Shown piece by piece: positions 39,322 to 63,539 of a stretch of 64,000 nt of DNA. The notes beneath the pieces were generated by a model that saw nothing but the letters and a program-made list of their open reading frames with translations, made no database searches and was not told the origin of the DNA. Source of the DNA: Puniceicoccaceae bacterium K14 (lineage in GTDB: Bacteria > Verrucomicrobiota > Verrucomicrobiia > Opitutales > Opitutaceae); assembly GCA_022538095.1 (NCBI GenBank), contig JAKYXN010000001.1, forward strand, positions 62,001-126,000, given 5' to 3'. Position 1 is the first letter of the stretch. Each line of letters opens with the position of its first letter. Position numbers and translations under genes: made by a program.

Positions 39322-39344
39322 AATCAATTACCTCCGTATCTATT

Positions 39345-40403: not shown

Positions 40404-40458
40404 AATTAGTAATTGTTCCTTCAATTTAGCCTTACAGTTACACCGCACTTCGCGCAAA

Positions 40459-42269: not shown

Positions 42270-43103
42270 ATGCCATTCAAAAACATGTCCAGATTGCTCA
42301 GAATGAATCTCATCCACGAGCAAGTATCCATCGGCCAAGCCCTCTATCCGCCTAAAGGAGTCTTTGGCCCTAAACAACTAAAAGAGTATCAACTCTTTGT
42401 GTTAGTATCCGGTAATTCGATCTTGAATACTGAAGGATCCGACCATTCAGTCGCTCCAGGAGAAGTCCGTTTGTTGATGCCCGGCATGCAATTGCTGCGA
42501 TTCGACGAAGACCGCAGCAGCCAGCAAATTTGGTGTTCCGTGAGTCCAGACGCCCTGACGCCTGCACAGCGAAAACGCTTGGAAGCGGCCCCTCGCCAAG
42601 CGAAAGCGACAACCCGCTTGCTCACTCTTCTCGAACTGGCCATTTCACTCCCCTACGGAGCTGGAAAAGACTCACCCGATCTGCTACTCTCGCTCGCCAC
42701 TTCAGCCATCCTAGAATACCTTCACTCTTGCGCGCCAATCCAAAACGATAAAATCTCCGAACCCAATCCGCTCCGACTCGCTCTCGAATACATAGAACAA
42801 CATTATCAATCCAAGATCGATCTTTCGACCTTGGCCAAAGCCTCCGGCGCTTCGATCGCTCATATCACACGCATGTTCACCTCTCATTTGGAAACACCGC
42901 CCATGCGCTACGTTTGGTCATACCGCGCCCGGCGCGGGGCGCTGCTCCTTCAAGAGACGGGATTATCCGTTTCCGAAATCGCCCACATAACCGGATTCCA
43001 AACACCTTTCCATTTTTCGCGTTGGATCAAGAAAACCCACAATCTATCGCCGCGAGCCCTTCGTCAAAGCAACTGGAGGCCCTCTCAACCCCTAACAGGG
43101 TAA
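42270..43103 (+). CDS. AraC-family transcription regulator
   Basis: 277 residues. The N-terminal half (about 1-150) looks like a cupin-type sensor region (FVLVSGNSILNTEG, APGEVRLLMPGMQLLRF). The C-terminal two helix-turn-helix units (about 170-270) have IDLSTLAKASGASIAHITRMF and the second SVSEIAHITGFQTPFHFSRWIKK. It sits between the divergent GH3 set and the symporter/lyase genes and probably activates both in response to an uptake product. Sixty-eight bases separate its start from the longest possible frame of GH3. Confidence 0.92.
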   Translation: MPFKNMSRLLRMNLIHEQVSIGQALYPPKGVFGPKQLKEYQLFVLVSGNSILNTEGSDHSVAPGEVRLLMPGMQLLRFDEDRSSQQIWCSVSPDALTPAQRKRLEAAPRQAKATTRLLTLLELAISLPYGAGKDSPDLLLSLATSAILEYLHSCAPIQNDKISEPNPLRLALEYIEQHYQSKIDLSTLAKASGASIAHITRMFTSHLETPPMRYVWSYRARRGALLLQETGLSVSEIAHITGFQTPFHFSRWIKKTHNLSPRALRQSNWRPSQPLTG

Positions 43104-43180
43104 GTAAGCTCTCAACTGACAGTCACACAAAACCGAGCTAAAGCAATATTCATACTCTCCAGCCCTTTTTTTAATACTCC

Positions 43181-44935: not shown

Positions 44936-44952
44936 CACCACATATTAGACAA

Positions 44953-47049
44953 ATGAACCTGTCCAACAACATGCTATGTAAGAGAGCTCTCGTCCGCTCT
45001 CGGATTGTTCCTCTCATTTTTCTATCCTGGGCTACTCTTTGTGCTGCTCCCAATTCAAAACAAAACTGGCACGAACCTATCAGCGAAGAGCAGCTCGCCA
45101 CACTAGAACACCCGCGATTATTGGCCACTTCTCAACGTTTAGCTAAGATCAAAGAATTCTATAATTCCGAAGCGGGCCACCCGACTCGACTCGAATTCGA
45201 AGCTTACCTTAAGAAGTGCAAGATTCCAGAAAAGGCCGCGTTTCTCAAAGACGCTACCGATGGACAACGCCAAGGCCTCTGGAACATCCCAACGCTCTCT
45301 CTTCACTATTTAATAACTGGGAGCGAATCTTCCCGCGATGCCACCATCGCCTACCTCGAGTGGCTAAACAACTTTGAACACTGGGAAGAAGGCAAGGAAG
45401 TCGACAGCGGAATGAGCGCCGCAAACATAATGGTAGGAGCGGCCATTGGCTTCGACAGCGTCTACCACGACCTCGAGCCCGACTTCCGCGAAACCTTCCG
45501 CAAAAAGATCTGGCATCACGCCACCGAACTCTACCGCCGAGGACACCAAGGCGAAAACCCAGCTTCTGGATACTGGATAAACGATCCGTTCAACAACCAT
45601 CGCTGGCACCGTAATGCAGGCCTGACCTTGAGCGTGCTCGCCGCCACAACCGGAACCAGCGAGGAGATCGATTTCATCAAAAAAGTATTACAAGAGCTCG
45701 ACTACATTTATTCAGCTCTCCCTGCCGACGGTAGTAGTCACGAGTCACCAAGTTACATGGTCTTCGGTCTCCCCTATCTAATGCTGGCCCTGGATGCAGC
45801 CGACCGCAACTTAGGTCAAGACTACCTAGAAGAAAGCTCATTCATTAATAATGTATCTAATTTTCGCATACAATCTCTTGCTCCCAATTTGAAACACGCC
45901 TTCACTTACGGCGACGACTCAGGTAAAGGATACTACAACAACGCGTTTTACCTCCCCGTCGCCAAACACAACCAAAGCGACCACCAAGTTGCCCTCGACG
46001 CCTACCGGAAGAACTTCGCAAGCCCCTTTAGTATTCCTTGGATGCGCCTGCTTTGGAGGGACAGCGAATTACCGAGAGGCAGCGTTGAAAACATCGCTCA
46101 CGAAACCTTCTTCGAAGATCTCGGTCTGCTCTTTGTAAGGGATGGTTGGGAGGCCCAAGACACCGCTCTCATGTTTAAATCAAGCCCCCTTGGCGGGCAT
46201 TCACTCAACGCATTCCGAGACAACAACGGAAAAGGATTCGTCAACGTCGCCCACAGCGATCCCGATGCCAACATGTTCGTCCTTTGGAACAAAGGCGCAT
46301 TCGTGGCGGAAAACGATCGCTACAGCAAGCACAAGCAATCCGCCAATCACAACACCATACTCGTAGACGGCATAGGCCAAACTTCTATCGGTAAAGAAGA
46401 AGGCGCAGTCTGGTCTCAGCCACCCGCAAATGGGGTTTCCATGCAAGATACCGCTTTCGTAACCGCTTACAAGAGCCTAGACGGGATCGTTGCTATCGAA
46501 GGTGAAGCCGCTAACGCCTACAGCCATGTTGATCTGGATACTTTTCGCCGTACCCTCATTTGGAACGAAGGAAACTACATCCTAGTAATCGACTCCATAG
46601 AATCACCCGAGCCGCACGAATTTTCCTGGCTTATACAAAGCCCAAGACTAACGGCTTTCGAAGAGTATCCAAACAACGGCACGCTCTTTCCTGGGCCGAG
46701 TGAAACACCTTTTGTCATTTCATCAAATGCACCTTACGAATCAGAAATAGTGCAATCAACAGCTGACAATCGCGGCAAACCTCTCGGCTGGCAACAGCTT
46801 CGCCTGAGCGCCAACACATCTAATTGGTTTCTCGTCAGTCTCTATCAACCTTGGGATGCCGGCTCAACGCTCTCAGTTAAATACAACAAAAAATCTAAGT
46901 CCGCTACAATTACCATAAAGAAAGATGACGAAAAAGATGCCTTTAAATGGAAAGCCGCCAAAGACGAAAATCACAGTAGCCAACTCTCTTTGAAAAACCG
47001 AAACGGCAACAGAGTTATCCTAGACGGATCCGAGCGTAAGCATCATTGA
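44953..47049 (+). CDS. Secreted heparinase II/III-family polysaccharide lyase
   Basis: A 698-residue protein from the ATG at 44953 (ATG 44971 is also possible). The signal peptide LVRSRIVPLIFLSWATLCAA ends before APNSKQNW. The N-terminal half is the alpha/alpha toroid, and the second half (from about 400) is the beta-sandwich with LMFKSSPLGGHSLNAFRDNNG and HNTILVDGIGQ, characteristic of the heparinase II/III-like family; NNHRWHRNAGL is in the toroid. It cleaves uronate-containing glycans by beta-elimination; the precise substrate (for example alginate- or glycosaminoglycan-like) is not readable. Placed after AraC and the symporter, it is the extracytoplasmic first step of the pathway. Confidence 0.87.
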   Translation: MNLSNNMLCKRALVRSRIVPLIFLSWATLCAAPNSKQNWHEPISEEQLATLEHPRLLATSQRLAKIKEFYNSEAGHPTRLEFEAYLKKCKIPEKAAFLKDATDGQRQGLWNIPTLSLHYLITGSESSRDATIAYLEWLNNFEHWEEGKEVDSGMSAANIMVGAAIGFDSVYHDLEPDFRETFRKKIWHHATELYRRGHQGENPASGYWINDPFNNHRWHRNAGLTLSVLAATTGTSEEIDFIKKVLQELDYIYSALPADGSSHESPSYMVFGLPYLMLALDAADRNLGQDYLEESSFINNVSNFRIQSLAPNLKHAFTYGDDSGKGYYNNAFYLPVAKHNQSDHQVALDAYRKNFASPFSIPWMRLLWRDSELPRGSVENIAHETFFEDLGLLFVRDGWEAQDTALMFKSSPLGGHSLNAFRDNNGKGFVNVAHSDPDANMFVLWNKGAFVAENDRYSKHKQSANHNTILVDGIGQTSIGKEEGAVWSQPPANGVSMQDTAFVTAYKSLDGIVAIEGEAANAYSHVDLDTFRRTLIWNEGNYILVIDSIESPEPHEFSWLIQSPRLTAFEEYPNNGTLFPGPSETPFVISSNAPYESEIVQSTADNRGKPLGWQQLRLSANTSNWFLVSLYQPWDAGSTLSVKYNKKSKSATITIKKDDEKDAFKWKAAKDENHSSQLSLKNRNGNRVILDGSERKHH

Positions 47050-47466: not shown

Positions 47467-49005
47467 TTAGTCTATGACTTTTCCGACTGACAACCACTGC
47501 CAATTGTCCGTACGAAATGGAGTGACTGGAAGCCCGTTGCCGTCGTAAAGGTTCACGACCGGATTCTTCGCCCACCCGTAACGAACGGCGACAGGATCCT
47601 CAAGGCTTTGGGCCCAAACCTCTACCGTATCCTTCGCCACGATTTTCGCCTCGGCCCAGATAAATTTTTTATCTGCCCCGGCGATACAGAATCCTTGGAT
47701 ATCTTTTGTATCAAAAGCGTAGAGACCTTGATCACTCAAATGGTCGAACTTTATCCTTATCCTATTTCCATCGGTTTGCATTTCTCTATACCTAGGACTC
47801 AGATACGATATATCAAATCCATAGTCGTTCGCCAATGGCCAGCGAACGAGTCGACTGGCTACAGTCTTCTTGTCACGAGGGTGAATATCTCGACCCTCGC
47901 CAATGTCTATAATCACAGCTTGTCCTGAGTTTTCGATTACATCCATTGCCTGTGTTTGGGCATCTCTTAATTCAGCCCAACTGTCTTCTCCTGGCTCGTT
48001 CGGCTCGCTACCGAAATCTGCCAATTGAACCCAGTAGAACGGAAAGGCTCCTTGCCCCCAGATTTCTCGCCATGTTTCCACGAGGAGAGGAAAAAGGTGT
48101 AGATACTGTTCACCCCTAGCTGCGTTGCTTTCGCCTTGGTACCAAATAACTCCCTTCATCCCGTATCCAGCGATCGGATTCACCATGCCATTAAAAATAT
48201 TGGCTGGACGGTGTTGTCCAGTCGCGGGGTGAACGGTCTCGCCCCAGTCCAAAGCTGGCTCAGGGCGTCCTTCAGCTACCCACGCGTTGTATTTAGCGAG
48301 GTAGGCCTTGTAGGCTTCTTCATCGAATGATGCCACGCGTTTGTCCCAGTGCGCAAGCATGGGCTGGTACCGTTCGTGTGATTCCAAGGTATTTCGGGGC
48401 ACCCAGCTTTCAGCAGAGGAACCGCCCCAAGCATTGTCGATCAGACCAATAGGAACATCCAAGGCCTCGTGCAGCATTTTGCCGTAGAAGTAGCCAATAG
48501 CTGAAAAGTCTCCCACAGTTTCTGGCGAGCAGACATTCCAGCATCCGTCGAAATTTTCTTGCGGTAAAGCTGTACCGTTTCGAGAGACGGTAAGAAAACG
48601 TATTCTTGGTCGATTGGCTGATACTATCTCTACCTCCGCTCCATACGAGCGAGTTACTGGCCACTGCATGTTAGACTGGCCGGAACAGAGCCAAACCTCA
48701 CCGGAGAGGACATCGTCAACTAGAACCTCGCTACTGCCCGAAATACGTAAAGTGTGCGGACCGCCAGCCGGAAGAGCTGGGAGCTTCGTCGTCCAATTGC
48801 CCTCTGCATCAGCAGTCGTAGAGAGTTGAATACCGGCAAGACTAAGTGCCAGTTCTTCGTGTGGTTCAGCCCAACCCCAAATTGGGTTTTCCTGATTTCG
48901 CTGCAGCACCATATGGTCGGTGAAGGCGCTTGGCAACGTCACTTCGGCACTTAATGATAATGTTAGGAGACTTGTGACGGCCGTTATAAACTGGGAAGTT
49001 CTCAT
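47467..49005 (-). CDS. Secreted sialate O-acetylesterase-like SGNH enzyme
   Basis: A SASA-type esterase of 512 residues. From the ATG at 49005 a signal peptide (MRTSQFITAVTSLLTLSLSA) is clear. An N-terminal beta domain (DHMVLQRNQENPIWGWAEP) precedes the SGNH fold: VWLCSGQSNMQWP with Ser111, IDNAWGGSSAESW, IWYQGESN, and the Asp-His pair in DIHPRDK. In polysaccharide-degrading loci such enzymes remove acetyl groups from xylan, alginate or pectin-like chains, not only sialate. Single gene, convergent to the lyase; upstream of the 3305-residue gene's end. Confidence 0.92.
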   Translation of the reverse strand: MRTSQFITAVTSLLTLSLSAEVTLPSAFTDHMVLQRNQENPIWGWAEPHEELALSLAGIQLSTTADAEGNWTTKLPALPAGGPHTLRISGSSEVLVDDVLSGEVWLCSGQSNMQWPVTRSYGAEVEIVSANRPRIRFLTVSRNGTALPQENFDGCWNVCSPETVGDFSAIGYFYGKMLHEALDVPIGLIDNAWGGSSAESWVPRNTLESHERYQPMLAHWDKRVASFDEEAYKAYLAKYNAWVAEGRPEPALDWGETVHPATGQHRPANIFNGMVNPIAGYGMKGVIWYQGESNAARGEQYLHLFPLLVETWREIWGQGAFPFYWVQLADFGSEPNEPGEDSWAELRDAQTQAMDVIENSGQAVIIDIGEGRDIHPRDKKTVASRLVRWPLANDYGFDISYLSPRYREMQTDGNRIRIKFDHLSDQGLYAFDTKDIQGFCIAGADKKFIWAEAKIVAKDTVEVWAQSLEDPVAVRYGWAKNPVVNLYDGNGLPVTPFRTDNWQWLSVGKVID

Positions 49006-49211
49006 TCGGATAATGTGAAAGCGGGCAAACATGACGACTGGTGCAGATAACCAGTTTTTTCAAGGAATTGGATTTATTGGAAGGTATCTAAATAATTATC
49101 CTCTTAGTTTCATAAATCCAGCAGATAAATTTCATCCTTTTCTCTTTATAAATAGCTATCAACGTATTTTAAATAAAATGACAATAACACTAGAAGTATG
49201 CTTACTTTTAA

Positions 49212-49293: not shown

Positions 49294-52200
49294 CTACGGA
49301 AACAGGGGAGACGGCTCCATGCTAGGAGTTGTATCAGCGCCAACCGGTCCGGCGATAGCACTCTCAGTAAAGAGGTCATACATCGATTCCCAAACCGAAA
49401 CACCTTCTAGGCTATCCCAGTAATTTCCATTGTTTGGACTTGGAGCGACCCAACAGTGCCGGAATTCAATGTTATCGAACACTTGACCGCTATTCTTCCC
49501 TCGGATCTGATTCGCACTATGGCGAGGGTGTTTTTCCGTAATATATAAGCCTTCAAGCACCAAGCCGCCATCCATCGGCCAGTCTTTTCCAGTATTGGGA
49601 GCCAACCAAACCGTACCATTGATACCAACAGCGTTGGCGCCTTCCACATCCAATCGTGTCCAGCGGATCGAACTCGGAGCGCTTACCGAACGAACATTGA
49701 AAACATCGCAATGCGGATCTTGGTTTTCCCACCAAGTATTATCGCTTTTGCTGCCGCTCGGAGCATCGCCTTGGACGCTGGCAATCGCAGTGTACAAGAA
49801 GTCTCCATAGAGAACCTGATCGCCGGGTGAATAAATGGTGGAAGCGCTGTAGTCAGTCGTCCCATCGAGAAAATTCTGAAAGTCGCCAATGTCTATAAAC
49901 TCGACCTCGAACTGCCCATGCAGCCGGAAGGCATCTTGGCTGAGCTCACGTATTCGCCCTCTTCTTACAATCAGACCACTTTGCGAAGAGAAGGAAGCCC
50001 CTTCGCCGCTTAGCCCGACCTGTACGGCCGCACCAGCGCCATCGTAATTACCACGCCCTACGATATCAAAATCCTCAATGATACAATTATCAGCGTTCGC
50101 ATCGACAAATATATGGTAGTGAGCGCCTGACAAGATCGAGCTTTCATCGAATCTCACATTTCGAAGGGTCGCCCCATCTCCCACCATTCGAACCGCATAT
50201 CCTTCCAACAACCAATTATCCAATACAGCTCCCGCCCCAACAGTTACGATGCTTCCGTTTAGCGTACAGCCTGAAGGCAAAGGATCGATTCCTACCGTGT
50301 AGGCTGGATTCGCTGGACCTCCGATCGCAGTGCTGAATTCAAGCGCCGCCAAGTTTTCCTTGAGGTTCGTTTCACTGTCGGAACTAGCAATGGCTGGAAA
50401 AACGAATGTGCGGTTTGCCTCGAGCAATTGAGGGTCTGGAGCATAGTCTGAGAAGTTCGAAAACAAGTCGGAGTAGCGCGGCTCCTGTCGACAGGTCGCA
50501 AAACCGTCATTCCCAAATCCTACGGCTAGATAGTGGCCCTTGCTCCAACCACTGGCAGTGTCGGCCGTCCCAGAAGAGCTTTGATACTCAATTCCAAAGT
50601 CAATCGACTGAATGTCTGTATCCGTTATCGGCGACCCTTTATCGATCACGCACCATCCTCGGGTAGCAAGGTTACCATCGTCGTCCTCGATCCAAGCATC
50701 CACTAAAACCCCATTCAACCTAAAGCCCCTCACGTCTGGCTTTCCTGCAAGGCGAGCCCGCCCCATCGCTAGATGCGGCGTCGTCAACCAGCCACCAGAC
50801 CAGCCGATCCGCAATTTGGAGGTCTCTCCATTAGGATGCTTTTCCACAATATCCGGGCGATGGTCAGCCACCGGATAATGCCCCGAAGCGAGCAAGGCAC
50901 TGTTCATGTGAATCAAGCCAGCGACAGGTCCGCCATAGAGAGTGTCTCTTGCCGGGTGCGAAGTGTCGCTGACGCCATCATTCTCACCCTTCACGTGACC
51001 GATATCGTAAGGCGACATGTGGATAGGCCCCTCGTTGAACGGGCTCTGCGAATAGCTCCCGTTAGACTTAATATCCGAAACAGCCGCGAGGTAGTCAGAC
51101 ACCTTGGAGCTAAAGGACCAAGGACTCTCCTGCAATACCACTGCAGCCCGGCTGTAGTCGACAATCTCGTCCAAGGACCAAGCCACAGTCTTGGAATTGC
51201 CGAATCTTCCGGCCACTGCCGCTGGCTTCGCAACCGTACTTCCATCGGCCAAGAGGCCGGTAAGCGCGGCGCCCAAGAGATTGTCGTTAGCATAAGACGA
51301 CGAAGTACCAGAGGAAAATTGCAAGGAAGCGACCCCAATCGATTGGCCTCGATCCGCATCGGTGATCGCCAAAGCAAGGTGGCCTGCCTTGTCGCTGGGG
51401 AAGTAGGCGGAGCTTTCCGAAATCAGAGCGTCAAGCCCTTCTCCGGAAACCTCCATCGGAATGACTAAGGTCGGCACGCCACCAAAATTGCGGTTCACTG
51501 TATTAGCGATCAAACGCCACGCCGAGGGCCAAGTTGAGAGAAAGGCAGAGCTGTTGTTCGGGTCATTATATCCCAAGGCGCCGTTATCGACCTTATATAC
51601 TCTACCGTGTCCTGCGAGTTGAGGGCTAGTGTCATTGAAATCGGCTGCGAAGAAAGCCACCCAAACACATTCCTCATTCTCTACAGCCGGCTTTGGGAAC
51701 GAGCCTAAATCGCCTTGGTAAGACCAGTGATACTTATTTGACTGCCCGTGCTGATAGGAAATGATCCCCACCCCGAAGGTATTGGTCAATGCACTTGTAC
51801 CAATGCCGTCCTTGAAACGAAGCTGCGGAGCCTCGATACCCGCTTTGGCAACGTGGTTCACCGTACCGGACCAAGCCCCGTCAGAAGCAACTGTACCCAC
51901 GTCCTCCCAAACGTAAGCGTTTCCGTCCCAAGCGAGGACTTGCACGATGCCGCCGACCGTTTGCGACCCGCCATCGGTACAGACGCCCCGCCAGACGATG
52001 GGGGCGGAGTTGAATCCACGAGCGAAGCCTGCATCGAAGATCGTGACGCGCTCTCCATTTTGGACGTCCATTCCCACGAACTCTTCGGCGCCGAGAAGAG
52101 CGGCGTCCAAACCGCTTACTCCCGAACCGCTAGTCGTAACGGCAATTGCCACGCTTTGGTCGGATTCGTTGCCCGCCGGATCGTAAGCGGTGACAGTGAA

Positions 52201-55200
52201 ACTGTAGGTCGTGCCGGAATTCAAGCCGTTCACGGTCACGCTAGTCCCGTCCACGCTAATAGAATCGCTTCCATCCGTGTAAACGTAGTACGCCACAATA
52301 CCGCTATCCTCGGTAGACTCGGACCAGCTCAAGTCCACGGAAGTATTCGTGATATTAGACGAAGATAAGCCCTCTGGCACGCTAGGAGGTGTCGTATCCA
52401 TAATCGTTTCACCAAAAACCAATAGGTCGTCGAATTGGGCACTGTCGTTACGGGAACCGAAACCGACGCGACCGCCGCTAAAAGCGGTGTCGCTAAGCGA
52501 AGCTACCTCAGCGCCATTGAGCGATACAATGATCGACGCGCCACTGCGCTCGACTGTCACCAGATAGTCTACGTCCGAGGCTATGCTCAAGTCGGGCAAG
52601 TCATAAATCTGCGAATGTGCACCGTCCTCGACTTTGATGATGCCTAGAGTATCGGGATCGTCGCTCTCGTTGAGCGACACGTAATAGAAGTTGCTCGCAT
52701 CTTGATAGTTAAAAACGAAAGCGGCGTCGTTCCAAACGGAAGCCGTTCCAAAGATATTGACGATCGCACTCGCCGTGTAATCGCCATTGAACGCGGTACG
52801 GTGTAGGCTAAGGTAGCCAAGCTGGCCAGCTCCTGCATTCGTTGCTCCATCGTGCATGAGCTGGTAGCGTCCATCCTCGACGCTCCAAACCTGACCTGCT
52901 ACGACCTCGAAATTGCTGGCGTCGGAGGAGAAGTCCTCGCTGACAGCAGCCCCGGAAGTCTGGGAAGGAACGATTACGCTAACCGAAGCCGTTGCATCGG
53001 GATTTACCCCGTTGCTAGCTGTGACTTCCCAGAGTAAGACTTGAGGTGAAACGCCTGCAGTTACCGTGTAGCCGTCACTGTTGATTTCGGAAGTTACGTC
53101 TACACCATCCAGCGAAAGCACGCCCGCCAGAACAGGCACTGGGTTGCCCTCCGTTGCTCCATAAGCCAGCGAGTAAGTGTAAGAGCCACCTAAAGCATCC
53201 ACTTCTTCGATACTTGGTTCCGTGATGAAACTCGGAGCGGAGGGTCCCGACGAATCGTGGTTGCGATAATGCGTCCACATCTCCTTGGCAAAATCCGGTA
53301 ACGCGTTACTGCCCGTGCCACCATCGGTCAGAGCCATGATTCGGTCACAATAGTCAATGAATGCATCGTGGTTCCAAAGTGTTTCCGCATCCATCAAGCG
53401 AACCGCCAAGGCTGAGCCCACATGGACGCCCGTATTGATATCGCGATATTTGGCCTCTAAGTGAGCGTTGTCCTGCGTGGGCCGATAGGTGTGACGGAGA
53501 CCCCACTCAGGAATTCCAACGTCGCTCGCAGCATAAGCAGTCGCTTTTCCGTCCGCAAGGTCACGCGAATCGGGATTCCAAGCCGCACTGTTGGTCAAAT
53601 CGACTTCAGTCTGACTTACGTAGAAGCAATTTTGGAACTCCTGAAACTCAGTACCTACTCCGCTCGAAGTACCATCGTGCTGCCCCCATAAGCCAACGCT
53701 TTGCATGTGAGCGTCGTCGAGCATCAGACCCGCAAAAAGAATCGGCCATTTGCGCCCGAGTCCGTGACCACCATTGGCCCTCCAACCCCCGCCGTTGTCA
53801 GCGATGCCTGTGGAATCGATTCCGTACTGCACAAGATTGATCAACAACTGCTCTTTGTCCGGATTTCCCGGTAACTGCTCGAAATCGAGATGCACGGCCA
53901 ACGCGCTCTGCAACATGATATGGCCCATGTCCCGCCCATAGTTAGGCATGTGTTCCGATGGGTGCACGAAAGCCCCGAGGAACTCGAAAACATGGTCGAT
54001 CCACGGGCGGCGCATCTGGTCCTCCAGTGTTGAGATGTCGGGAAGATTCAGGGATGGAACATCCAGCTCGAGCAATAAATCAGTATCCAAATCTTCAATG
54101 CCATACTTCACGCTATTGTCATTGCCAACGTAGGGCGAGCGGAAGCTATTGTCCGGAGGCGTCTGCTCGAGAACGGTGAGAATCCCAGCGGAGCGAGTCG
54201 CCGGACGCGGCGTACCGGTAGCGTTGTTGAACGAAGGGCATCCGGACTCAGCATCCGAAGACGAATTGTAAAGCCAGCTAACTTGCGAAACAAGCGAGTC
54301 GTGCGGCGCAAGCGAAAGCGGGTTCGAAACGGAAAGGGCTTGTCCATTGGGACGCCCCACGTTGAGGCTCGCATTGTACGAATTCAAGCCGTCGTCATAG
54401 CCCTGCTCTTGACGGTCGTGGCCTAGCAGAGGATTCAGCATAGAGCCATTTTGCCCTACCCGCGGCGTGTAGCTACTGGAGTTCAGGCTATTGCTTATAT
54501 CAATCACGTTCGCTGGTCCGACGATCCAGAAGTCGCCCGTAATGAAGGTGCCATAGACCACTTCACGATCAAAAGTCCAAGTGATTCCGTTTGACGTGAT
54601 TTCATCCGTCGCGCCCCAAACGGTGCCAAGCTCGGGGTCCCCTCCTGCGATCTCGTAAGTCGCGGAAACCACATCGCTATCTTCCATGCCGTTTTTGAAA
54701 GCGATCGCCTTAAGCTCCACCGCCGAATCCAATGCGATTGGATCCGAGTAAAACTGCCCCAAGAAACGGCTCGGCATCGTACCATCCAAGGTATAACGTA
54801 TGGTAGCGTCGGCAGTGGAAGAGCTGATACTCACGCTTTGAGCAGTGGCGTAGCTACCAGACGGTAGCGAGAAAGTGGGAGTCGCAACCTGTCCTACTGC
54901 GGCCAAAAACTCGTCTGCACCTACATCCGGACTCCCGTCTCGAGGATCGCCTTCGAAATCGTAAGTTGGAGCGTAATCAATCGTGCCCGCATCGACCGCC
55001 GAGCTCGTCGAGAGCAAACGAAAATCGTAATTCGCATGGTCGACGAAATGGGCTGCATAGTCCGTAGTCTCGATGTTGTTGGACAAAACGGTTCCAGAGC
55101 TTCCGTTGATTTCAACAGTCAAGTTGTTATGGCTGTAGTTTCCGCTGCTAGCTTGCCCCGACAGCGGTTCGACGCTTATCCAAGGCGTACCATTTCCGAT

Positions 55201-58200
55201 CCCGTTAGGGTTGAGGACTACGGTATTGTTGATGATCCGGCTATCGCGGGCACCGTAGAGCGTAATTCCGTGCCAATGAGTAACGGCCACGATATTATTC
55301 TCAATCACCCAATTGTCATACCAACCGCCGAAACAGGCAATTCCCTGTGAGTTGGCCAAGAACGGGTTGCCAACCTCAGAGGCATTCATAAAAGTGTTAC
55401 CTCGCAAGATCACGTTCTGCGACGCAAAGCCTTGTAGCAAATCGCTATGGTTTCCGTTGGTCTGGTAAGCATCGGCGATATAGTTATTCTCGATCAGTAA
55501 ATCCTTGCCGCGAGCCCGTAAGCCATCGCCGCAAAAGCGCTGTACAGTATTGCCTCGAAGAGTCAGGTTGTGAGTGTCGTCGGTCATATGAATACCGAAG
55601 TTCACGTTTCTCACCTGGCAATCTTCAATAGTGATATAATGGCTTCCTTGCCGGATGTAGAATCCATTCCAAGCTTCGTAATTCCAATTGTCTGCAGTCC
55701 ACGCGGATGAATCGTCGATCGAGTAAATATCGCAATCCTGAAAAAGAATATTCGAACTGCCATTCGCTACTAGCACCAACGAGTTGCCCCATTGGGGATA
55801 GACGGGATGCTCCAAGACTGCCGTCCAAGGTGGGAGTACGCTCGTGTGTATATCCACTCCTTTTAGCGCCCACCCCGAAGCTCCATTAAAATCGATGCGA
55901 TTCAAGACTGGCCGATGACCGGGCTCCGCCATAATCGTAACGCGCCTTGTATTTGAACCGCTAATAACTGGGAATCCATGATCTCCCGTCCGTAGGTAGA
56001 GGGTGTCGCCAGACTCAAAAACCTTACCGGCTGCGAATACTTCTGCCAACGTGCTCCAAGGCTCAGAGGCCGTGCCTTGACCGCCCATGCTCCCCGTAAC
56101 AGGATCTACATAATATACATTGCCATCACTTCCCGAGGCCGTCGTCACCTCTATCTCCTCGCTCATACTAGACTCGTTTCCAGCGGCATCGTAAGCACTA
56201 ACCGCAAAAGAGTATCCAACATTAGGTGACAAACCAGCAATCGTCACGCTGGATCCCGCCACTACAAGCGGTGCAGCTCCATCGGTGTAAATCTTGTAAC
56301 CAACGACCTCCAGATTGTCGGTAGCCGGGTTCCAACTTAAATCCACGCTCGTGCTAGCCACTTCCGTTGCGAACACTCCGTCTGGAGCACTGGGAGCTTC
56401 GGTATCGGCTATGCCACTCTGGCCAATTAAAAGCGTCAAGCGAGGCTGGTTTGCCACAACGGAATTATCAGCGCTACCAAAAGTCCAAAAACGATAGTCA
56501 AATTCATCCGTATGAGCGGAATTGAGGCGGAGAAAGACATAATCCCCACCGCTCGCACCCAAGGAATACTGGGCTCGAATATAATCGAGCAGCTTCGACT
56601 CTCCGGCCGAGTCCGTTGAGGTGAAAGTTGCGTTCGGCGTGGACGAGGTCGCTATTGCATCATCGATTGCGGTGGCCGCACTATCTCCGCCAAACGGTCC
56701 CGTATAAAAGTCGCTGCTCGAGACGACTGTACTAGAAGTACGATAGTCCAGACCATAAAGGTCCACAGGACCGACCAGCGGCGTATTGTTTTTAGTCTCC
56801 AAAAACGCGGCAAAACTGGCTCCAACAATCGTCTCGTCAGCATCCAGTACAGGCAGGGCAAACGGGAAGATCGCGTTGCCCTCGACGTTGGCGCTCGAGC
56901 CCCCGACGCGGATCGTTCCTTGTCCCGACCATTTTGCGCTACCGTCGCTATGAATTTCTCTGTCATCGCCACTGGCCACTATCTCCGTAGAGATCGATTG
57001 TCCACTGGATGTCGTCGTTACCGCAACCGAATCGCTCGGTGCCGACTCGTTGCCGTGAGCGTCGTAGGCGCTAACCGTAAAACTGTAGTTATTATTCGGC
57101 GACAATCCAACAGTAGTAATCTTTGTCCCGACCACATTTACTGGCGATCCCCCATCAGTGTAAACCGTGTAGCCGACTACACCAATATTGTCTGCCGAGG
57201 CGTTCCACGACAATTCTACGCTGGTAGCAGTTACCGACTCTACCGACACGGCACTCGGAACACCTGGAGCTTCTCTATCGACATTAGCTACCGAAACTGC
57301 GCTCGTATCGCGAAACCCACCCTCATTAGTCGTAGCTGTGATCGTCGCGCTACCTTCGTTAACAGCAGTCACTTGCCCAGTCTCGTCAACAGTTGCTACC
57401 TCTGAGTCACTAGTACTCCAAGTCACAGAAGTATCTGTCGCATCTACTGGAGTAACTTCGGCAGACAAACTACCACTTTCGCCCACCGACAATGACAAGT
57501 CGCTCGGCAACACACTCACGCCGCTCACTCGTATCATAACATTGACTACGCTTGCATCAGAAAAGCCGCCATCTTGCGTGGTAACGCTAATCATAGCGCT
57601 ACCAACGACAGCCCCTGTGACGAATCCATTTTGATCAACGCTCGCCACAGCGCTATCGCTTGAGGACCAAGTGACTGATTTGTTCGTTGCATTCGATGGA
57701 AAAACCGTTTCCGAAAGGCTAGCAGTTTCTCCCACCGTCAGGTTCAAGACTTCTGGCGATAAGCTCACTCTATCAACCAGCACGACTACGAGGACCTCGC
57801 TCGTGTCGGAATAGCCTCCGTCCACCGTCGAAACCGTGATAATCGATTGCCCTTCTCCGACCGCGACAACCACCCCGTCCGCATTCACTGTAGCGACATT
57901 CGCATCACTCGAAGACCACGTTAAAGATTGAAACGAAGCCTCGGACGGGGTAAGCACCGCAGTCAAATCTGCCGACTCATTAACCAAAATCTGGATTGCA
58001 TCGGGAGAGAGATTCACTCCAGTCACCGGATTCTGGCTCTGACCAGTCATGCTCACAAGCAAATCGTCAAACTGCCCCCCATCATTTTTAGAACCGAAAC
58101 CAACTTGCCCACCGCTAGGAGTAGAGTCGGCAATCACTGCCACTTCAACCCCATCCAAGCGGACAATTACTGTCGCCCCTAAACGTTCAACTTCCACGAC

Positions 58201-59211
58201 GTAATCCTGATCCGAAACAATAGACAAAGAACCTAGATCATACAATTCGGAAGGTACGCCATTCACGACCTGAAAGATGCCTTTTGTATTAGAATCATCA
58301 CTTTCATTTAAGGAAACGTAAGAAAAATTTTGAAGATCGATAAAATCGAATACAAACGCATTATCATTCCAATTCGAAGCTGTACCCGTAATTCGCAGCA
58401 CAGCGCTGGCTAAGTAGTCGCCGCTGAAAACCGATTTATGAATACTGAGATTGCCCAACAGACCTGCAACAGTCGAGTTCCCAGGATTAGACAGTTCGTA
58501 ACGGCCATCGGACCACGCCCAATCCCCCCCTAATAATTCGACGAATTGAGAAGCATCCGCTGAAAAATCGTCTGCAATCAACGTATAAGTTTCTCTAAAA
58601 CCATCAGCAAACAAATCATCAAAATCAGCAAAACGAGAATTGGCGCCAAATCCCAACTGGCCACCAACAAACGTCGTATCAACGATTGATCCAAATTCTT
58701 CACCGTCAAGAAAAACACTTATTTCGTCACCGATACGATCAATCTCTATAAGGTAGTCCGATCCAGCGTAAAAGCGCTTCCCACCAAAACCCATAATTCG
58801 AGTACGTCTTCCATCAACAACTCTGAACACACCATTTGCAAAGGGCCATCTTAGATTACTTATCGATATATAATAAAAATTACTCGAATCCTGATACCCA
58901 AATAAAAGTGCGGCATCACACCACCGCCGTCGATGCTCACCCAAGCGTACTTTAGCACCAGCTCTGTAATCTTCTTCAAACCGTTCTTCATGCACACTAA
59001 TGCTTCTCATAAACCAATAAAAAACATCCTGGTTTCGAATCTGCCTAAAGTTCAAACCAAGTGGCTCATAGTGACCATCGCTAAGGCGCCAGTTACCCGA
59101 CACTTTAGTAAATCGATCAGCGTCAGAAGAAAAATCTTCCAGCACCTGCTCATTTGCCTGCAATGTTAAAAGCGACAAAACCAATATATAAAAAAAGCGA
59201 ATACATTTCAT
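49294..59211 (-). CDS. Giant secreted modular protein with two beta-helix regions and an esterase-like region
   Basis: 3305 residues; signal peptide MKCIRFFYILVLSLLTLQA. Modules, approximate residues: two LamG-like domains (25-390); three BIG2 Ig-like (394-648); FN3 (649-739); a DNRLRE-like beta region (741-937); FN3 (937-1024); a right-handed beta-helix (1029-1433) with YYVDPVTGS and LRTGDHGFPV; chitobiase C-terminal-like (1437-1517); an unassigned region (1520-1987) with GGHGLGRKWPILFAGLML; an Ig-like domain (1990-2083); LamG-like (2090-2272); FN3 (2274-2358); an SGNH/SASA-like region (2367-2937) with YQHGQSN and DTSHPARD; and a second beta-helix (2960-3305) with an inserted CBM-like segment (IYSPGDQVLYGDFLYTA). 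The catalogue suggests a surface-exposed or secreted polysaccharide-active machine. TonB receptor upstream, acetylesterase downstream. Exact activity unknown. Confidence 0.82.
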   Translation of the reverse strand: MKCIRFFYILVLSLLTLQANEQVLEDFSSDADRFTKVSGNWRLSDGHYEPLGLNFRQIRNQDVFYWFMRSISVHEERFEEDYRAGAKVRLGEHRRRWCDAALLFGYQDSSNFYYISISNLRWPFANGVFRVVDGRRTRIMGFGGKRFYAGSDYLIEIDRIGDEISVFLDGEEFGSIVDTTFVGGQLGFGANSRFADFDDLFADGFRETYTLIADDFSADASQFVELLGGDWAWSDGRYELSNPGNSTVAGLLGNLSIHKSVFSGDYLASAVLRITGTASNWNDNAFVFDFIDLQNFSYVSLNESDDSNTKGIFQVVNGVPSELYDLGSLSIVSDQDYVVEVERLGATVIVRLDGVEVAVIADSTPSGGQVGFGSKNDGGQFDDLLVSMTGQSQNPVTGVNLSPDAIQILVNESADLTAVLTPSEASFQSLTWSSSDANVATVNADGVVVAVGEGQSIITVSTVDGGYSDTSEVLVVVLVDRVSLSPEVLNLTVGETASLSETVFPSNATNKSVTWSSSDSAVASVDQNGFVTGAVVGSAMISVTTQDGGFSDASVVNVMIRVSGVSVLPSDLSLSVGESGSLSAEVTPVDATDTSVTWSTSDSEVATVDETGQVTAVNEGSATITATTNEGGFRDTSAVSVANVDREAPGVPSAVSVESVTATSVELSWNASADNIGVVGYTVYTDGGSPVNVVGTKITTVGLSPNNNYSFTVSAYDAHGNESAPSDSVAVTTTSSGQSISTEIVASGDDREIHSDGSAKWSGQGTIRVGGSSANVEGNAIFPFALPVLDADETIVGASFAAFLETKNNTPLVGPVDLYGLDYRTSSTVVSSSDFYTGPFGGDSAATAIDDAIATSSTPNATFTSTDSAGESKLLDYIRAQYSLGASGGDYVFLRLNSAHTDEFDYRFWTFGSADNSVVANQPRLTLLIGQSGIADTEAPSAPDGVFATEVASTSVDLSWNPATDNLEVVGYKIYTDGAAPLVVAGSSVTIAGLSPNVGYSFAVSAYDAAGNESSMSEEIEVTTASGSDGNVYYVDPVTGSMGGQGTASEPWSTLAEVFAAGKVFESGDTLYLRTGDHGFPVISGSNTRRVTIMAEPGHRPVLNRIDFNGASGWALKGVDIHTSVLPPWTAVLEHPVYPQWGNSLVLVANGSSNILFQDCDIYSIDDSSAWTADNWNYEAWNGFYIRQGSHYITIEDCQVRNVNFGIHMTDDTHNLTLRGNTVQRFCGDGLRARGKDLLIENNYIADAYQTNGNHSDLLQGFASQNVILRGNTFMNASEVGNPFLANSQGIACFGGWYDNWVIENNIVAVTHWHGITLYGARDSRIINNTVVLNPNGIGNGTPWISVEPLSGQASSGNYSHNNLTVEINGSSGTVLSNNIETTDYAAHFVDHANYDFRLLSTSSAVDAGTIDYAPTYDFEGDPRDGSPDVGADEFLAAVGQVATPTFSLPSGSYATAQSVSISSSTADATIRYTLDGTMPSRFLGQFYSDPIALDSAVELKAIAFKNGMEDSDVVSATYEIAGGDPELGTVWGATDEITSNGITWTFDREVVYGTFITGDFWIVGPANVIDISNSLNSSSYTPRVGQNGSMLNPLLGHDRQEQGYDDGLNSYNASLNVGRPNGQALSVSNPLSLAPHDSLVSQVSWLYNSSSDAESGCPSFNNATGTPRPATRSAGILTVLEQTPPDNSFRSPYVGNDNSVKYGIEDLDTDLLLELDVPSLNLPDISTLEDQMRRPWIDHVFEFLGAFVHPSEHMPNYGRDMGHIMLQSALAVHLDFEQLPGNPDKEQLLINLVQYGIDSTGIADNGGGWRANGGHGLGRKWPILFAGLMLDDAHMQSVGLWGQHDGTSSGVGTEFQEFQNCFYVSQTEVDLTNSAAWNPDSRDLADGKATAYAASDVGIPEWGLRHTYRPTQDNAHLEAKYRDINTGVHVGSALAVRLMDAETLWNHDAFIDYCDRIMALTDGGTGSNALPDFAKEMWTHYRNHDSSGPSAPSFITEPSIEEVDALGGSYTYSLAYGATEGNPVPVLAGVLSLDGVDVTSEINSDGYTVTAGVSPQVLLWEVTASNGVNPDATASVSVIVPSQTSGAAVSEDFSSDASNFEVVAGQVWSVEDGRYQLMHDGATNAGAGQLGYLSLHRTAFNGDYTASAIVNIFGTASVWNDAAFVFNYQDASNFYYVSLNESDDPDTLGIIKVEDGAHSQIYDLPDLSIASDVDYLVTVERSGASIIVSLNGAEVASLSDTAFSGGRVGFGSRNDSAQFDDLLVFGETIMDTTPPSVPEGLSSSNITNTSVDLSWSESTEDSGIVAYYVYTDGSDSISVDGTSVTVNGLNSGTTYSFTVTAYDPAGNESDQSVAIAVTTSGSGVSGLDAALLGAEEFVGMDVQNGERVTIFDAGFARGFNSAPIVWRGVCTDGGSQTVGGIVQVLAWDGNAYVWEDVGTVASDGAWSGTVNHVAKAGIEAPQLRFKDGIGTSALTNTFGVGIISYQHGQSNKYHWSYQGDLGSFPKPAVENEECVWVAFFAADFNDTSPQLAGHGRVYKVDNGALGYNDPNNSSAFLSTWPSAWRLIANTVNRNFGGVPTLVIPMEVSGEGLDALISESSAYFPSDKAGHLALAITDADRGQSIGVASLQFSSGTSSSYANDNLLGAALTGLLADGSTVAKPAAVAGRFGNSKTVAWSLDEIVDYSRAAVVLQESPWSFSSKVSDYLAAVSDIKSNGSYSQSPFNEGPIHMSPYDIGHVKGENDGVSDTSHPARDTLYGGPVAGLIHMNSALLASGHYPVADHRPDIVEKHPNGETSKLRIGWSGGWLTTPHLAMGRARLAGKPDVRGFRLNGVLVDAWIEDDDGNLATRGWCVIDKGSPITDTDIQSIDFGIEYQSSSGTADTASGWSKGHYLAVGFGNDGFATCRQEPRYSDLFSNFSDYAPDPQLLEANRTFVFPAIASSDSETNLKENLAALEFSTAIGGPANPAYTVGIDPLPSGCTLNGSIVTVGAGAVLDNWLLEGYAVRMVGDGATLRNVRFDESSILSGAHYHIFVDANADNCIIEDFDIVGRGNYDGAGAAVQVGLSGEGASFSSQSGLIVRRGRIRELSQDAFRLHGQFEVEFIDIGDFQNFLDGTTDYSASTIYSPGDQVLYGDFLYTAIASVQGDAPSGSKSDNTWWENQDPHCDVFNVRSVSAPSSIRWTRLDVEGANAVGINGTVWLAPNTGKDWPMDGGLVLEGLYITEKHPRHSANQIRGKNSGQVFDNIEFRHCWVAPSPNNGNYWDSLEGVSVWESMYDLFTESAIAGPVGADTTPSMEPSPLFP

Positions 59212-59559: not shown

Positions 59560-62500
59560 TTAAAAGCTAAAGGTGTTCGTCAATTGCCAAGAGGTCGTTG
59601 AAGACATACGTACAGCAGCCCAATCACCATTTGGCTGCGTAGATATTGGTATCAATTTTTTCTTTGCAAAGGCATCCTTAATGTTTAATTGGATACTCCA
59701 ATCGATCTTATCGTTCAATTCTTTGCTATAGCCTACCCACAGGTCGACGTGATCTATAGAGTCGTCATAGTATGGGTTTTGTAGATCGAATTCATAGCTC
59801 AAATCCGTTTCGCGTAATGGATACCCGATCACCGATTTATCCTCCCAACGATATGCCCCGCCTACTTTCACATTTTTCAAAATACCTTCAGTGAATCGAT
59901 AATTGCTAATAAGATTGAAACGCCATTCACGAACCTCTGGATTTGCTGTTCCCTCTAAGAGTTTGATCAAGCCAAAGTTCACGCGGAAATTCTGATTCCA
60001 ATAATTTAATAAAGTAGCATCTGGGTTAGAAGAAGACCACATACGCATCTGGCCGGCGTCCGTTTCGTTGTACCAATGGTCTACGAACTCAATAAAATCG
60101 AGCATGCTCCGTCCGCCAACATCGGTCCTGGTCACTTTGGTTTTGGAAGCATTAGCCGAAATTCTCCAATTTTTCGTTGGATTTGCCACAAACTCGAATT
60201 CAAGCCCCTTCGAGACTGCGTTTTGCGTGTAAGTCAATCCCTCGGGTGCAGTTGTTCTAACTTGACCGGACTCAGGAATACCGTCAACCGTAGCAGAGTC
60301 TCTCGGATCGTGAGTCCAACTCCATCCATTCAGAAATCCCTCAGGAAGAGCTTCCATCATCGCCCGATAGTCCGTAATGGCAGACGCTTCCAGTGCTTCT
60401 TCTCCAACTGGGAAATCATAACGCCAAGACTGGGCTGCGTTAGCAGGAATTCCATCCTTACCCCATTTTCCAGGAGCTAAATCGTATTCGTAGACATTCG
60501 TAAAATTTAGGCCAAGATTGATGGTTCTGCCTATCACCCAACTTCTCAGGCTTGTATCCGTACTTGTCAGATTCGACGCCGTTTCGTAACTGGTGATCCG
60601 CAAAGAAAATCGATTATCCTTAGTCGCTAGGAGAATACTCCTATCCACAGTATTACCAAATGGCGAAGGTAGTGGATTATTGTATATGTCCACGCGTCCC
60701 GCATCTGGTTGAAAGTTCTCAGACTCATTGTAATACAAGCTTACATTAATCGGTAGTTTTTCGCCAAAAAAGCGGTTAATGTGCATTGCGACACTATAAC
60801 TACGAGACTGGCCCGATTCGACTGTCGGAGTAAAATTAAGATTATAATCCTCATGCTCAGGATCAAAAACACGCGTTACCGCATTCGTAATCCGATTTTC
60901 AGAATTGTCGCCTAGATCCTCACGATAGGAACCATTACGTTGCCATGACGTATCCGTATCCTTTCTCCAACCATAAGTGCCAACGAGTGCTCCGTCTAGC
61001 AAGTATCCCTGCCAAATCAAAGCTTCCGACTTTACCTCGCCTTCGGAAATCGATCCAGCTGATAATAATTCTGGGGATACAAGCTTTCCTCCGTTTAATG
61101 CACTGACCACTGGAAGCGTACGCTCAACCCAACCAACATAATTGTCGGTATTTTCAGACTGAGTAGATACACTACCATCAGGTTTAGTCCATACATCACC
61201 TGCTGCGATTCCTGCCGGAGCATTCCAGGTCGCGTCAAAACTGTAATAGGTTCCGCTACTTGGATTTTGGACCGCGGTGAGACCAGGGATACCAGCACCT
61301 GAAGCACTTGCGCTTCCTAAAAGCGAACCTCCAAGGTAGTGAGTGGTATAGATACCTGTTGCGATATTTGTCCAGTCGCCATCATTGATGTCGCCAGAAT
61401 CAAATACAGCCTTCAGTCTTTCATCGTAAATATCACTGCCGATTCTCCAACGATCGAAATTGAGAGACTCTGTCGTTTGCCTATCCTCTGAAGCCATACC
61501 GGTCACAATATGTCTACCAAGGAAACGGGATAACCATCCCTCATTATCAAAATCCCGAAAATCAAGCTCGGCGTAAGCAGTCAATCGAGCAGACTCACGG
61601 TCCGACCCGTAGAGATAGTTTCTAGAGCGAGATGCGTCGGAAATAAATGGTCGCCCAACATTTGGATTGGGAGAACCGTCTCCAAGATGAGAGTTTGTAT
61701 CAATATTGATCGCAATATTATTAGGATCACCAAACAAGCCCTCTTGGCCACGATTAAAGCTTTGGTCGTACAGAGCGAGTTCGTATCCTACATTATTATT
61801 AAAAAACGTTTGCTGAAAGCTAACGTTAACCGCTTCGAAGTCACTCCATTCGCTTTTGTTAGGCCCATCCAAAAGGTGATTCCAAAAATCGAATACGGAC
61901 GAATCTTGAAGAAAGACATCTCTGTACTGTCCTGAATCCCATCCCGGTAGCTGAGCTTTGATGGCATACTGTGAATACGTATCGATTCCAGTGAGCCTTC
62001 CAAACTCTGTTCCGTCGATGGTGCCGTCAATCGTTCCATCAGGTGCAAGTCCCCCAAACGTATCCAACTCATGATCCTGAGAATAGCCAATCTGCGGAGA
62101 ATTCGCATCCGGAAACACCATCAACAATCCACCTACATTGGCTCCAAAATCACCAAGATAAGGAATGTAGTTAGCATTCAGAGCAGAGCTCCCATCTTCC
62201 AATATTTGATTCCTCATAGCTTCACCTTTACCTTCTTTATTGGCAAATTGATTCCAAGCTTCGTACGGGTCTCCAGTGTATCCACCTACCCCACCATAGA
62301 GCGGATAGCTGTAGGTTCCATCCGTATTGGCGGTTGCTCCGACATCGTTGAAAAACGGTGTGATCCGATCGATCGGCGTCAGCGTCCGCGGTCGATTACT
62401 ATCCAATTCGCCCTTTTCCCAGTTCGCATCCAACACAGTAGACATAGAGTCTGACTGGAGAAACTTAGGCTTGTAATTCATAGAGAAATAATACCGATCA

Positions 62501-63243
62501 TCATTACTCCAAGCTTCCTCTTGACGAAATTTTTCATTCTCGTCCAGCAAGGCCACGCGAACAGCAAGCTCGTCTTTTAGGACTTCTCGGTTCAAGCTCA
62601 CTTCGTAGCGGCGTGTTCCGTAGCTACCTAGCCTAAAAGTCGCCTTACCTTCATTAGTAAAGGTCGCCTTATCCAAAGAGTTATTGATAATCCCCCCGGG
62701 GCTGCCCAATCCATAGAGTATTGCATTGGGACCGCGCTGAAGCTCCACCCGACTTGTGTTGTATCCATCCCACGGCAGATCGGATATAAAGTAATTTCGC
62801 GTCCCATCTGCAGCTACCAAACCGCGGACACGAGTGTTTCCATTGGGCGAGCTAAAGTCTTCATTCGGTGTAGTGCCATTTCCAACACCTGAAAAATTTC
62901 CATTGGGTCCACCAACTTCCGTATTCGTCGCATAGGTGAGCAGCGATTCATTGTCAGTCGCTCCGACGTCCTCCAGAAATTCTTCTGTGATCACGGAAAT
63001 CGCTGAACCAACGTCCTTCAACTCGGTTTTAAGTCTCGATGCAGCCAAAGTGCTGCTCGCTCGATACCCTTGATCCTCGCTTGCTTCTACAACAAAGGGA
63101 GACAATTCGAAAACTCCCTCAGAATCCTCATCCTCTTGAGCAATCGTTAATGGGTGTGTCAATGCAGGCACAGCAAATAATGTCATTACTGCTTTCACCC
63201 CCTGCACTGATGGTAATCTTTTTAAAGTTGTTTGTATATTCAT
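59560..63243 (-). CDS. TonB-dependent outer-membrane receptor
   Basis: 1227 residues from the ATG at 63243; the frame is open 19 codons further. Signal region about 1-36 (VMTLFAVPALTHPLTIAQ). The segment EGVFELSPFVVEA is the N-terminal box common in Opitutia receptors. The plug domain (about 55-205) has SAISVITEEFLEDVGA, NTRVRGL, SRVELQRGPNAILYG and GSPGGIINNSL. The beta-barrel fills the rest and ends with the aromatic TNTFSF required for barrel assembly. It takes up oligosaccharides or siderophore-like ligands; the neighbouring LacI regulator and glycan genes favour a glycan. No SusD is present, as usual outside Bacteroidota. Confidence 0.95.
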   Translation of the reverse strand: MNIQTTLKRLPSVQGVKAVMTLFAVPALTHPLTIAQEDEDSEGVFELSPFVVEASEDQGYRASSTLAASRLKTELKDVGSAISVITEEFLEDVGATDNESLLTYATNTEVGGPNGNFSGVGNGTTPNEDFSSPNGNTRVRGLVAADGTRNYFISDLPWDGYNTSRVELQRGPNAILYGLGSPGGIINNSLDKATFTNEGKATFRLGSYGTRRYEVSLNREVLKDELAVRVALLDENEKFRQEEAWSNDDRYYFSMNYKPKFLQSDSMSTVLDANWEKGELDSNRPRTLTPIDRITPFFNDVGATANTDGTYSYPLYGGVGGYTGDPYEAWNQFANKEGKGEAMRNQILEDGSSALNANYIPYLGDFGANVGGLLMVFPDANSPQIGYSQDHELDTFGGLAPDGTIDGTIDGTEFGRLTGIDTYSQYAIKAQLPGWDSGQYRDVFLQDSSVFDFWNHLLDGPNKSEWSDFEAVNVSFQQTFFNNNVGYELALYDQSFNRGQEGLFGDPNNIAINIDTNSHLGDGSPNPNVGRPFISDASRSRNYLYGSDRESARLTAYAELDFRDFDNEGWLSRFLGRHIVTGMASEDRQTTESLNFDRWRIGSDIYDERLKAVFDSGDINDGDWTNIATGIYTTHYLGGSLLGSASASGAGIPGLTAVQNPSSGTYYSFDATWNAPAGIAAGDVWTKPDGSVSTQSENTDNYVGWVERTLPVVSALNGGKLVSPELLSAGSISEGEVKSEALIWQGYLLDGALVGTYGWRKDTDTSWQRNGSYREDLGDNSENRITNAVTRVFDPEHEDYNLNFTPTVESGQSRSYSVAMHINRFFGEKLPINVSLYYNESENFQPDAGRVDIYNNPLPSPFGNTVDRSILLATKDNRFSLRITSYETASNLTSTDTSLRSWVIGRTINLGLNFTNVYEYDLAPGKWGKDGIPANAAQSWRYDFPVGEEALEASAITDYRAMMEALPEGFLNGWSWTHDPRDSATVDGIPESGQVRTTAPEGLTYTQNAVSKGLEFEFVANPTKNWRISANASKTKVTRTDVGGRSMLDFIEFVDHWYNETDAGQMRMWSSSNPDATLLNYWNQNFRVNFGLIKLLEGTANPEVREWRFNLISNYRFTEGILKNVKVGGAYRWEDKSVIGYPLRETDLSYEFDLQNPYYDDSIDHVDLWVGYSKELNDKIDWSIQLNIKDAFAKKKLIPISTQPNGDWAAVRMSSTTSWQLTNTFSF

Positions 63244-63539
63244 TAGCATTCGTTTGGTTCTGATAGTTTGATACGAATTATTAGCTAGTTGAAGAGCCAC
63301 ATCTGTCGACAGGCGCAGAGTCGTTTTTAGTGCGAATCAAACACTAGATTGCTCAATAAGCAAAAACGCTTAGCCGAGCTAATAGACCGTAAAAATCATT
63401 ATTATGGTTTAGAGAGGTGTTGAGGTTTAATCGGGGTGAATTTCCAATGGCACGAACTCTCGTCCTAGGAAATTTGAAACAATAGAAACGGCTTGCATGC
63501 TAGCAACAACACTGCATGAACTTTCACTGTTAGGGGATC
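63244..63539. promoter_or_regulatory. Divergent promoter region with LacI-type palindromes
   Basis: Between the receptor and LacI genes. Two inverted repeats are candidates for a LacI-family operator: TAAGC-AAAAAC-GCTTA at 63357-63372 and TTGC-ATGCTA-GCAA at 63493-63506. The first is closer to the receptor start (114 bases upstream), the second lies 34 bases before the regulator. Neither is a proven site. Confidence 0.45.

Follow-up and report, generated by a model that had tools for sequence, protein, structure and literature searches.

The giant gene and its surroundings

The window (the whole stretch of DNA that was analyzed, 64,000 nucleotides from Puniceicoccaceae bacterium K14) contains a giant gene on its minus strand, originally predicted to encode one chain of 3305 residues next to a TonB receptor. 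Both parts of this description are accurate: all 3305 codons between positions 49294 and 59211 are open, and the receptor gene lies upstream on the same strand, separated from the giant gene by 348 bp. A SASA-type carbohydrate esterase is encoded downstream. The features of the region are:

59560..63300, minus strand: TonB-dependent receptor (Plug domain, PF07715, E 8.6e-8)
49294..59211, minus strand: the whole giant gene, 3305 aa (single open frame, no internal stop)
59155..59211, minus strand: signal-peptide-like N-terminus of the giant protein, MKCIRFFYILVLSLLTLQA (sequence inspection)
47467..49032, minus strand: SASA-type carbohydrate esterase (PF03629, E 2.4e-16)
44917..47049, plus strand: heparinase II/III-type polysaccharide lyase (PF07940; PDB PL15 oligoalginate lyase, E 9.5e-15)
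37816..44935: sulfatase, beta-lactamase-like serine hydrolase, GH3, AraC regulator and sodium:solute symporter (Pfam)

The closest solved structures to the heparinase-type lyase are the PL15 oligoalginate lyase and PL35 chondroitinase. Past the window edge we found genes for a LacI regulator, a 2-hydroxyacid dehydrogenase, a second sulfatase, a rhamnosidase-like enzyme and an esterase. A TonB receptor, several polysaccharide-active genes and regulators thus occur together, as in a polysaccharide utilization locus; no SusD match was present among the genes scanned. Judging from this set of enzymes, the cluster probably serves the utilization of an acidic, probably sulfated polymer. An IS4/5-type transposase gene (35816-36523, minus strand) is located close to the edge of the cluster, and elsewhere in the window another giant frame (19052-27316, minus strand) encodes 2754 aa and matches Big_9 and DUF1349.

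Module order of the giant protein

The modules of the giant protein are listed below from the N-terminus to the C-terminus. The unassigned mid-protein domain of the original prediction is called MID here, and the repeated module that had been described as LamG-like is called module A.

58588..59148, minus strand: module A copy 1 ("LamG-like 1"), residues 22-208 (38% identical to copy 3; no Pfam match)
58027..58587, minus strand: module A copy 2 ("LamG-like 2"), residues 209-395 (57% identical to copy 3)
57292..58020, minus strand: three Big_2 domains, residues 398-640 (PF02368, E 4.3e-40, 3 stretches)
57013..57270, minus strand: FN3 domain 1, residues 648-733 (PF00041, 3 stretches in the protein, E 4e-30)
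56416..57006, minus strand: unnamed module, residues 736-932 (phmmer matches in loci L017, L021 and L051; no Pfam match)
56131..56400, minus strand: FN3 domain 2, residues 938-1027 (PF00041; PDB 8pn5, E 1.9e-15)
54886..56130, minus strand: beta-helix region 1, residues 1028-1442 (PF13229, E 8.8e-12; GNHxDxxQ and HWHG motifs conserved)
54664..54864, minus strand: CHB_HEX_C_1 (chitobiase-C-type) module, residues 1450-1516 (PF13290, E 5.3e-17)
53260..54612, minus strand: MID domain, residues 1534-1984, putatively polysaccharide-cleaving (relatives, AlphaFold2 model, conserved residues; no Pfam match)
52957..53241, minus strand: Ig-like linker, residues 1991-2085 (sequence inspection only; no Pfam match)
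52402..52956, minus strand: module A copy 3 ("LamG-like 3"), residues 2086-2270 (comparison among the copies)
52150..52380, minus strand: FN3 domain 3, residues 2278-2354 (PF00041)
50383..52119, minus strand: putative SGNH-type esterase region, residues 2365-2943 (motifs only: Ser2491; Asp2749/His2752)
49297..50382, minus strand: C-terminal region ("second helix"), residues 2944-3305 (Beta_helix, E 0.16; CBM_5_12, E 0.12)

The Pfam searches recovered the three BIG2 and three FN3 domains that had been predicted. The three LamG-like domains did not hold up, as no LamG family matched at E <= 10, and the giant gene was not among the matches of a PF13385 (LamG) profile search of the genome; these pieces are copies of one and the same module. 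Two beta-helix regions had also been proposed, and the first stands: it scores 45.4 bits against PF13229, where the gathering score is 25.9, and is thereby recognized as a right-handed beta-helix. The second region stays under this threshold (12.0 bits). Relatives of beta-helix region 1 were found in three loci (L186, L203 and L072), and its NHxDxxQ and HxHG motifs are kept in four distant relatives. Three elements were absent from the original domain list, namely the CHB_HEX_C_1 module, the module at residues 736-932 and a weak CBM5/12-like insert at approximately residues 3121-3148. When the protein was scanned piecewise, module A, residues 736-932, MID, the SGNH-like region and the last 362 residues had no Pfam family above the cut-off.

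Some of these modules accompany MID elsewhere. Each of the three loci with a relative of the 736-932 module also contains MID, and a paralogue on contig C154 combines MID with CHB_HEX_C and module A. An apparent fusion of beta-helix region 1 with MID in loci L081 and L090 was rejected, as the identity of 25-27% was too weak. No relative with the complete module order of the giant protein was found.

The SGNH-like region and the C-terminus

The predicted SGNH/SASA-like esterase region is borne out at the level of its motifs: HGQSN (Ser2491) and DTSHP (Asp2749/His2752) correspond to the block I serine and the block V Asp/His motifs and occur in the correct order. At the level of families it is not, since neither Pfam (up to E 10) nor the PDB gave a match. 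Both motifs are invariant in a paralogue that is 72% identical over this region (L010), encoded elsewhere in the genome, on contig C165. The frame of this paralogue stops directly after the region, which indicates that the final 362 residues are an extra piece particular to the giant protein; a search of 240 other genomes of the phylum gave practically no relatives of this piece. The paralogue is harboured by a second TonB/sulfatase/GH2 cluster (L208, C165:58000-75320), in which a short stretch resembling an N-terminal fragment of GH92 lies between the paralogue and the GH2 gene.

Profile searches with the SGNH-like region gave no clear relative in 288 other Verrucomicrobiota genomes, 246 Planctomycetota genomes, 219 genomes of the phylum to which a Thiotrichaceae locus belongs, or 11 named genomes, plasmids, genome contigs and viral contigs, and in 218 Bacteroidota genomes just a partial match of 79 residues (E 5e-4); these searches had no positive control genome, so that the negatives weigh little alone. 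There was no meaningful PHROG match to this region, and phages searched with the entire C-terminal 945 aa, the SGNH-like region included, yielded no clear relative. A phage origin of the C-terminal region was rejected for want of a significant phage match. Across all searches, the C165 paralogue is the single clear relative. The structure model of the region, built from two sequences only, is poor (pLDDT 27.9) because there are too few related sequences. On the strength of its motifs, the region may be an esterase, and we refer to it as putative.

MID is a large and widespread family

MID is the most informative part of the giant protein. When a profile was run against one genome per species, at least 276 relatives came up, a lower bound as the scan used one short pattern. 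The bacterial relatives among the best 80 of the 276 matches come from Verrucomicrobiota, Planctomycetota, Spirochaetota, Bacteroidota, Chloroflexota, Thermodesulfobacteriota, Pseudomonadota, Myxococcota and candidate-phylum bacteria, and the archaeal ones from small archaea (Woesearchaeota and Pacearchaeota), although many of these genomes are metagenome bins and single phylum labels may therefore be wrong. Viral contigs in IMG/VR contain 55 relatives, and in INPHARED 20 Mycobacterium phages carry MID, with an identity of 28-29% that extends over 97% of the domain. One locus contains a tandem pair of MID genes (L213:2984-5844, G180 C40), and two IMG/VR contigs (L163 and L164) have viral frames of approximately 4,400 aa with scattered, divergent pieces matching the MID profile. 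None of 26 members had a significant match in Pfam, NCBIfam had no match over the MID region of the giant protein, and there was no sequence match in the PDB. A literature search did not find a paper naming the family.

The AlphaFold2 model of MID, based on 26 sequences, has a pLDDT of 91.5 and a pTM of 0.92, and combines a helical domain with a beta domain at the N-terminus. Foldseek retrieved nothing significant from the PDB (best E 0.27), and only two homologues from viral predictions. The VIA list for the model (Z 2.6-3.6) contains many alpha/alpha-toroids, including GH65, GH116, GH8, GH9, PL2, PL17 and complement C3d-like domains; absence of a match in VIA carries no weight. These rankings are no more than a hint at a toroid plan.

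Across 133 sequences from cells and phages, Arg1691, Asp1799 and Tyr1922 are 100% conserved by weight, and Gln1795, Asp1560, Tyr1758 and Arg1923 are 96-98% conserved. Many tryptophans are conserved as well. Conservation of polar residues across both cells and phages favours the view that MID is a carbohydrate-acting enzyme.

Genomic neighbourhoods of MID genes

In the MID tree, the giant protein belongs to a clade of 20 members (support 100) that contains no EPS-linked or viral rows and consists of secreted, free-standing proteins plus a few fusions. The gene for one free-standing MID protein (genome G142), 55% identical to the MID of the giant protein, lies near a heparinase-type lyase gene 43.5% identical to that in the window, and near two esterase genes 33-34% identical to the one beside the cluster of the giant gene. 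In the verrucomicrobial genome LW23, the gene that follows MID (L052:9475-10701) is 57% identical to the beta-lactamase-like gene of the window (39345-40457), making this serine hydrolase a possible conserved partner of MID. In a spirochaete, the divergent neighbour of the MID gene is a relative of beta-helix region 1 with FN3.

Other MID genes are found among genes for exopolysaccharide synthesis. A paralogue in the same genome (contig C297, L206:9197-11272) encodes a secreted protein of 692 aa that contains MID. It follows a GT2 gene at 26 bp, is followed by a GT1 gene at 12 bp, and belongs to a run made up of Wzz-type, glycosyltransferase (GT), Wzy, acetyltransferase and Wzx genes. Of 79 named loci, 23 have homologues of the GT, Wzy or Wzx genes of this run close to MID, a count that has no matched background, and 25 do if two loci with an acetyltransferase only are added; Wzy is directly next to MID in 7 of the 79. 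DUF3485 (EpsI), part of the exosortase/EPS loci described previously (PMC1569441), is the immediate neighbour of 4 of 94 MID genes. As 57 DUF3485 genes were counted in 119 Planctomycetota genomes, or about one per ten thousand genes, approximately 0.01 such neighbours would be expected, with the caveat that the four loci are partly non-independent.

In viral contigs, MID is flanked by genes for tail proteins (phrog_376 six times, phrog_394 five times), terminases and a portal. In phage Halley, the MID protein is gp45 (706 aa), which corresponds to phrog_34846 (E 4.8e-46) and is encoded as the last gene of the tail module, directly before the lysis genes. The name given to the Cluster J protein varies by record: it is a minor tail protein in Halley, lysin A in Redno2 and hypothetical in others. 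The Redno2 entry is gene 43 of that Mycobacterium phage (NC_022066 36013-37341); its name is probably wrong, because in Halley lysin A is encoded separately, two genes further downstream. The virion proteins of phage Omega have been listed by mass spectrometry (Cluster J paper, PMC3706429), and none of the 20 phage records that contain MID is Omega. Outside the clade of the giant protein, the viral rows of the MID tree force at least six label changes, and MID thus seems to have been exchanged repeatedly between phages and cells.

Proposed role: a secreted protein acting on polysaccharide

The explanation that we consider best, and hold with about even confidence, is that the giant protein is a secreted multi-module protein acting on polysaccharide, with MID as a putative cleaving domain and a division of labour among the modules. 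Its substrate, outside the cell, would be a polysaccharide that contains uronic acid and is probably sulfated and acylated, and module A, Big_2, FN3 and CHB_HEX_C at the ends and in the linkers would hold the protein on this substrate or on a surface. The centre of the protein would contain two enzymes, the beta-helix enzyme and MID, the latter a candidate glycosidase or lyase that would belong to a family not described before. The putative esterase near the C-terminus may strip acyl groups; the products would enter via the TonB receptor, and would be finished by the nearby heparinase-type lyase, GH3, sulfatases and esterases. The giant protein looks like a fusion of enzymes that are separate elsewhere (the beta-helix enzyme, MID and the putative esterase) on a chain of binding and spacer modules.

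The original prediction had termed the protein a self-contained surface machine for an acetylated polysaccharide. The gene context gives good support to a surface-exposed or secreted protein that acts on polysaccharide. The specification "acetylated" is weak, because the esterase within the chain is a motif call, though a true SASA gene adjoins, and "self-contained" overstates the case, because neighbouring genes provide further steps.

A cleaving role for MID is supported by the position of the giant gene in a polysaccharide-degradation cluster, by the occurrence of MID in EPS operons and phage tail modules, by the conserved polar residues, by the homologous lyase and esterases near the free-standing MID of G142, by the relative of beta-helix region 1 adjoining the spirochaete MID gene, and by the presence of alpha/alpha-toroid glycosidases and lyases among the weak best matches of VIA. 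It is weakened by the fold searches, in which no known enzyme matched significantly (best Foldseek E 0.27, best VIA Z 3.6). A binding or structural role would, moreover, suit operons, phage tails and secretion almost equally, and the main alternative, to which we assign a distinctly smaller though appreciable likelihood, is that MID is a non-catalytic domain that binds polysaccharide or acts as a scaffold. The giant protein would then mainly be a surface adhesin in which only the helix or the esterase is catalytic. Many accessory modules of binding type flank MID in the giant protein, similar kinds of module accompany it in other proteins, and phage tails and EPS operons need binding proteins too. 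However, the invariant Arg, Asp and Tyr, together with the Gln and Lys, exceed what binding folds usually retain, and many MID relatives are free-standing, single-domain secreted proteins.

We regard it as rather improbable that MID modifies a polymer (as an epimerase, a transglycosylase or an acyl-transfer type of enzyme), for instance in trimming or anchoring EPS during export. The operon links of MID to Wzy and glycosyltransferases in producers and its link to DUF3485/EpsI would fit such a role, but cleavage explains the phage tail modules and catabolic clusters more easily.

That the giant frame is an artificial join of adjacent genes or contig ends is very unlikely: the protein does contain repeated modules (FN3 and module A), and the paralogue on C165 stops at a contig edge amid near-identical FN3 repeats (74-nt exact), but the longest exact repeat inside the giant gene is 14 nt, exact sharing with the compared parts of its own genome does not exceed 16 nt, the frame is unbroken across 9.9 kb, and the 736-932 module, CHB_HEX_C and module A co-occur with MID in other proteins.

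Returning to cleavage as the preferred role, MID may found a new carbohydrate-active enzyme family with an unsolved fold arrangement, common to EPS producers (in biosynthetic operons), polysaccharide consumers (in secreted and giant enzymes) and phages (in tail modules), so that a single polysaccharide-cutting domain would circulate three ways among bacteria, archaea and viruses; we put this forward tentatively, at somewhat less than even confidence. The family, with at least 276 relatives in genomes and 55 in viral contigs, is missing from Pfam, NCBIfam and the PDB. If MID does cut polysaccharide, this would provide a function for many hypothetical genes in EPS operons and phage tail regions and for secreted proteins of Verrucomicrobiota and Planctomycetota, as well as a new tool to degrade bacterial slime or algal polymers.

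Comparison with known systems

Beta-helix region 1 matches the beta-helix of HK620-type phage tailspikes weakly (profile E 0.0014, approximately 90 residues), which is not a match at the family level. The SGNH-like region shares the GQSN and DxxH motifs, in the same order, with the SASA/SGNH carbohydrate esterases (PF03629), but differs from them in having no profile match at any level. MID shares a rough plan of toroid and beta domain with the alpha/alpha-toroid lyases and glycosidases (PL2, PL15, PL17, GH65 and GH116) at the level of rank lists, without a significant structural or sequence match to them.

Closer counterparts of MID are found in phages and in related bacteria. Gp45 of the Cluster J (Omegavirus) mycobacteriophages (phrog_34846) consists of MID along nearly its full length (28.6% identity, 97% coverage); unlike the giant protein, it is a 706-aa phage protein that ends the tail gene module. 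Cerasicoccus frondis and C. maritimus have free-standing MID proteins that are 57% and 55% identical over MID, are secreted, and belong with the giant protein to the same five-member clade (support 99), but these are single-domain proteins of 480 aa without the helix, the esterase and the linkers. Multi-module secreted proteins acting on carbohydrates are already known; this one draws attention to the large unnamed MID family.
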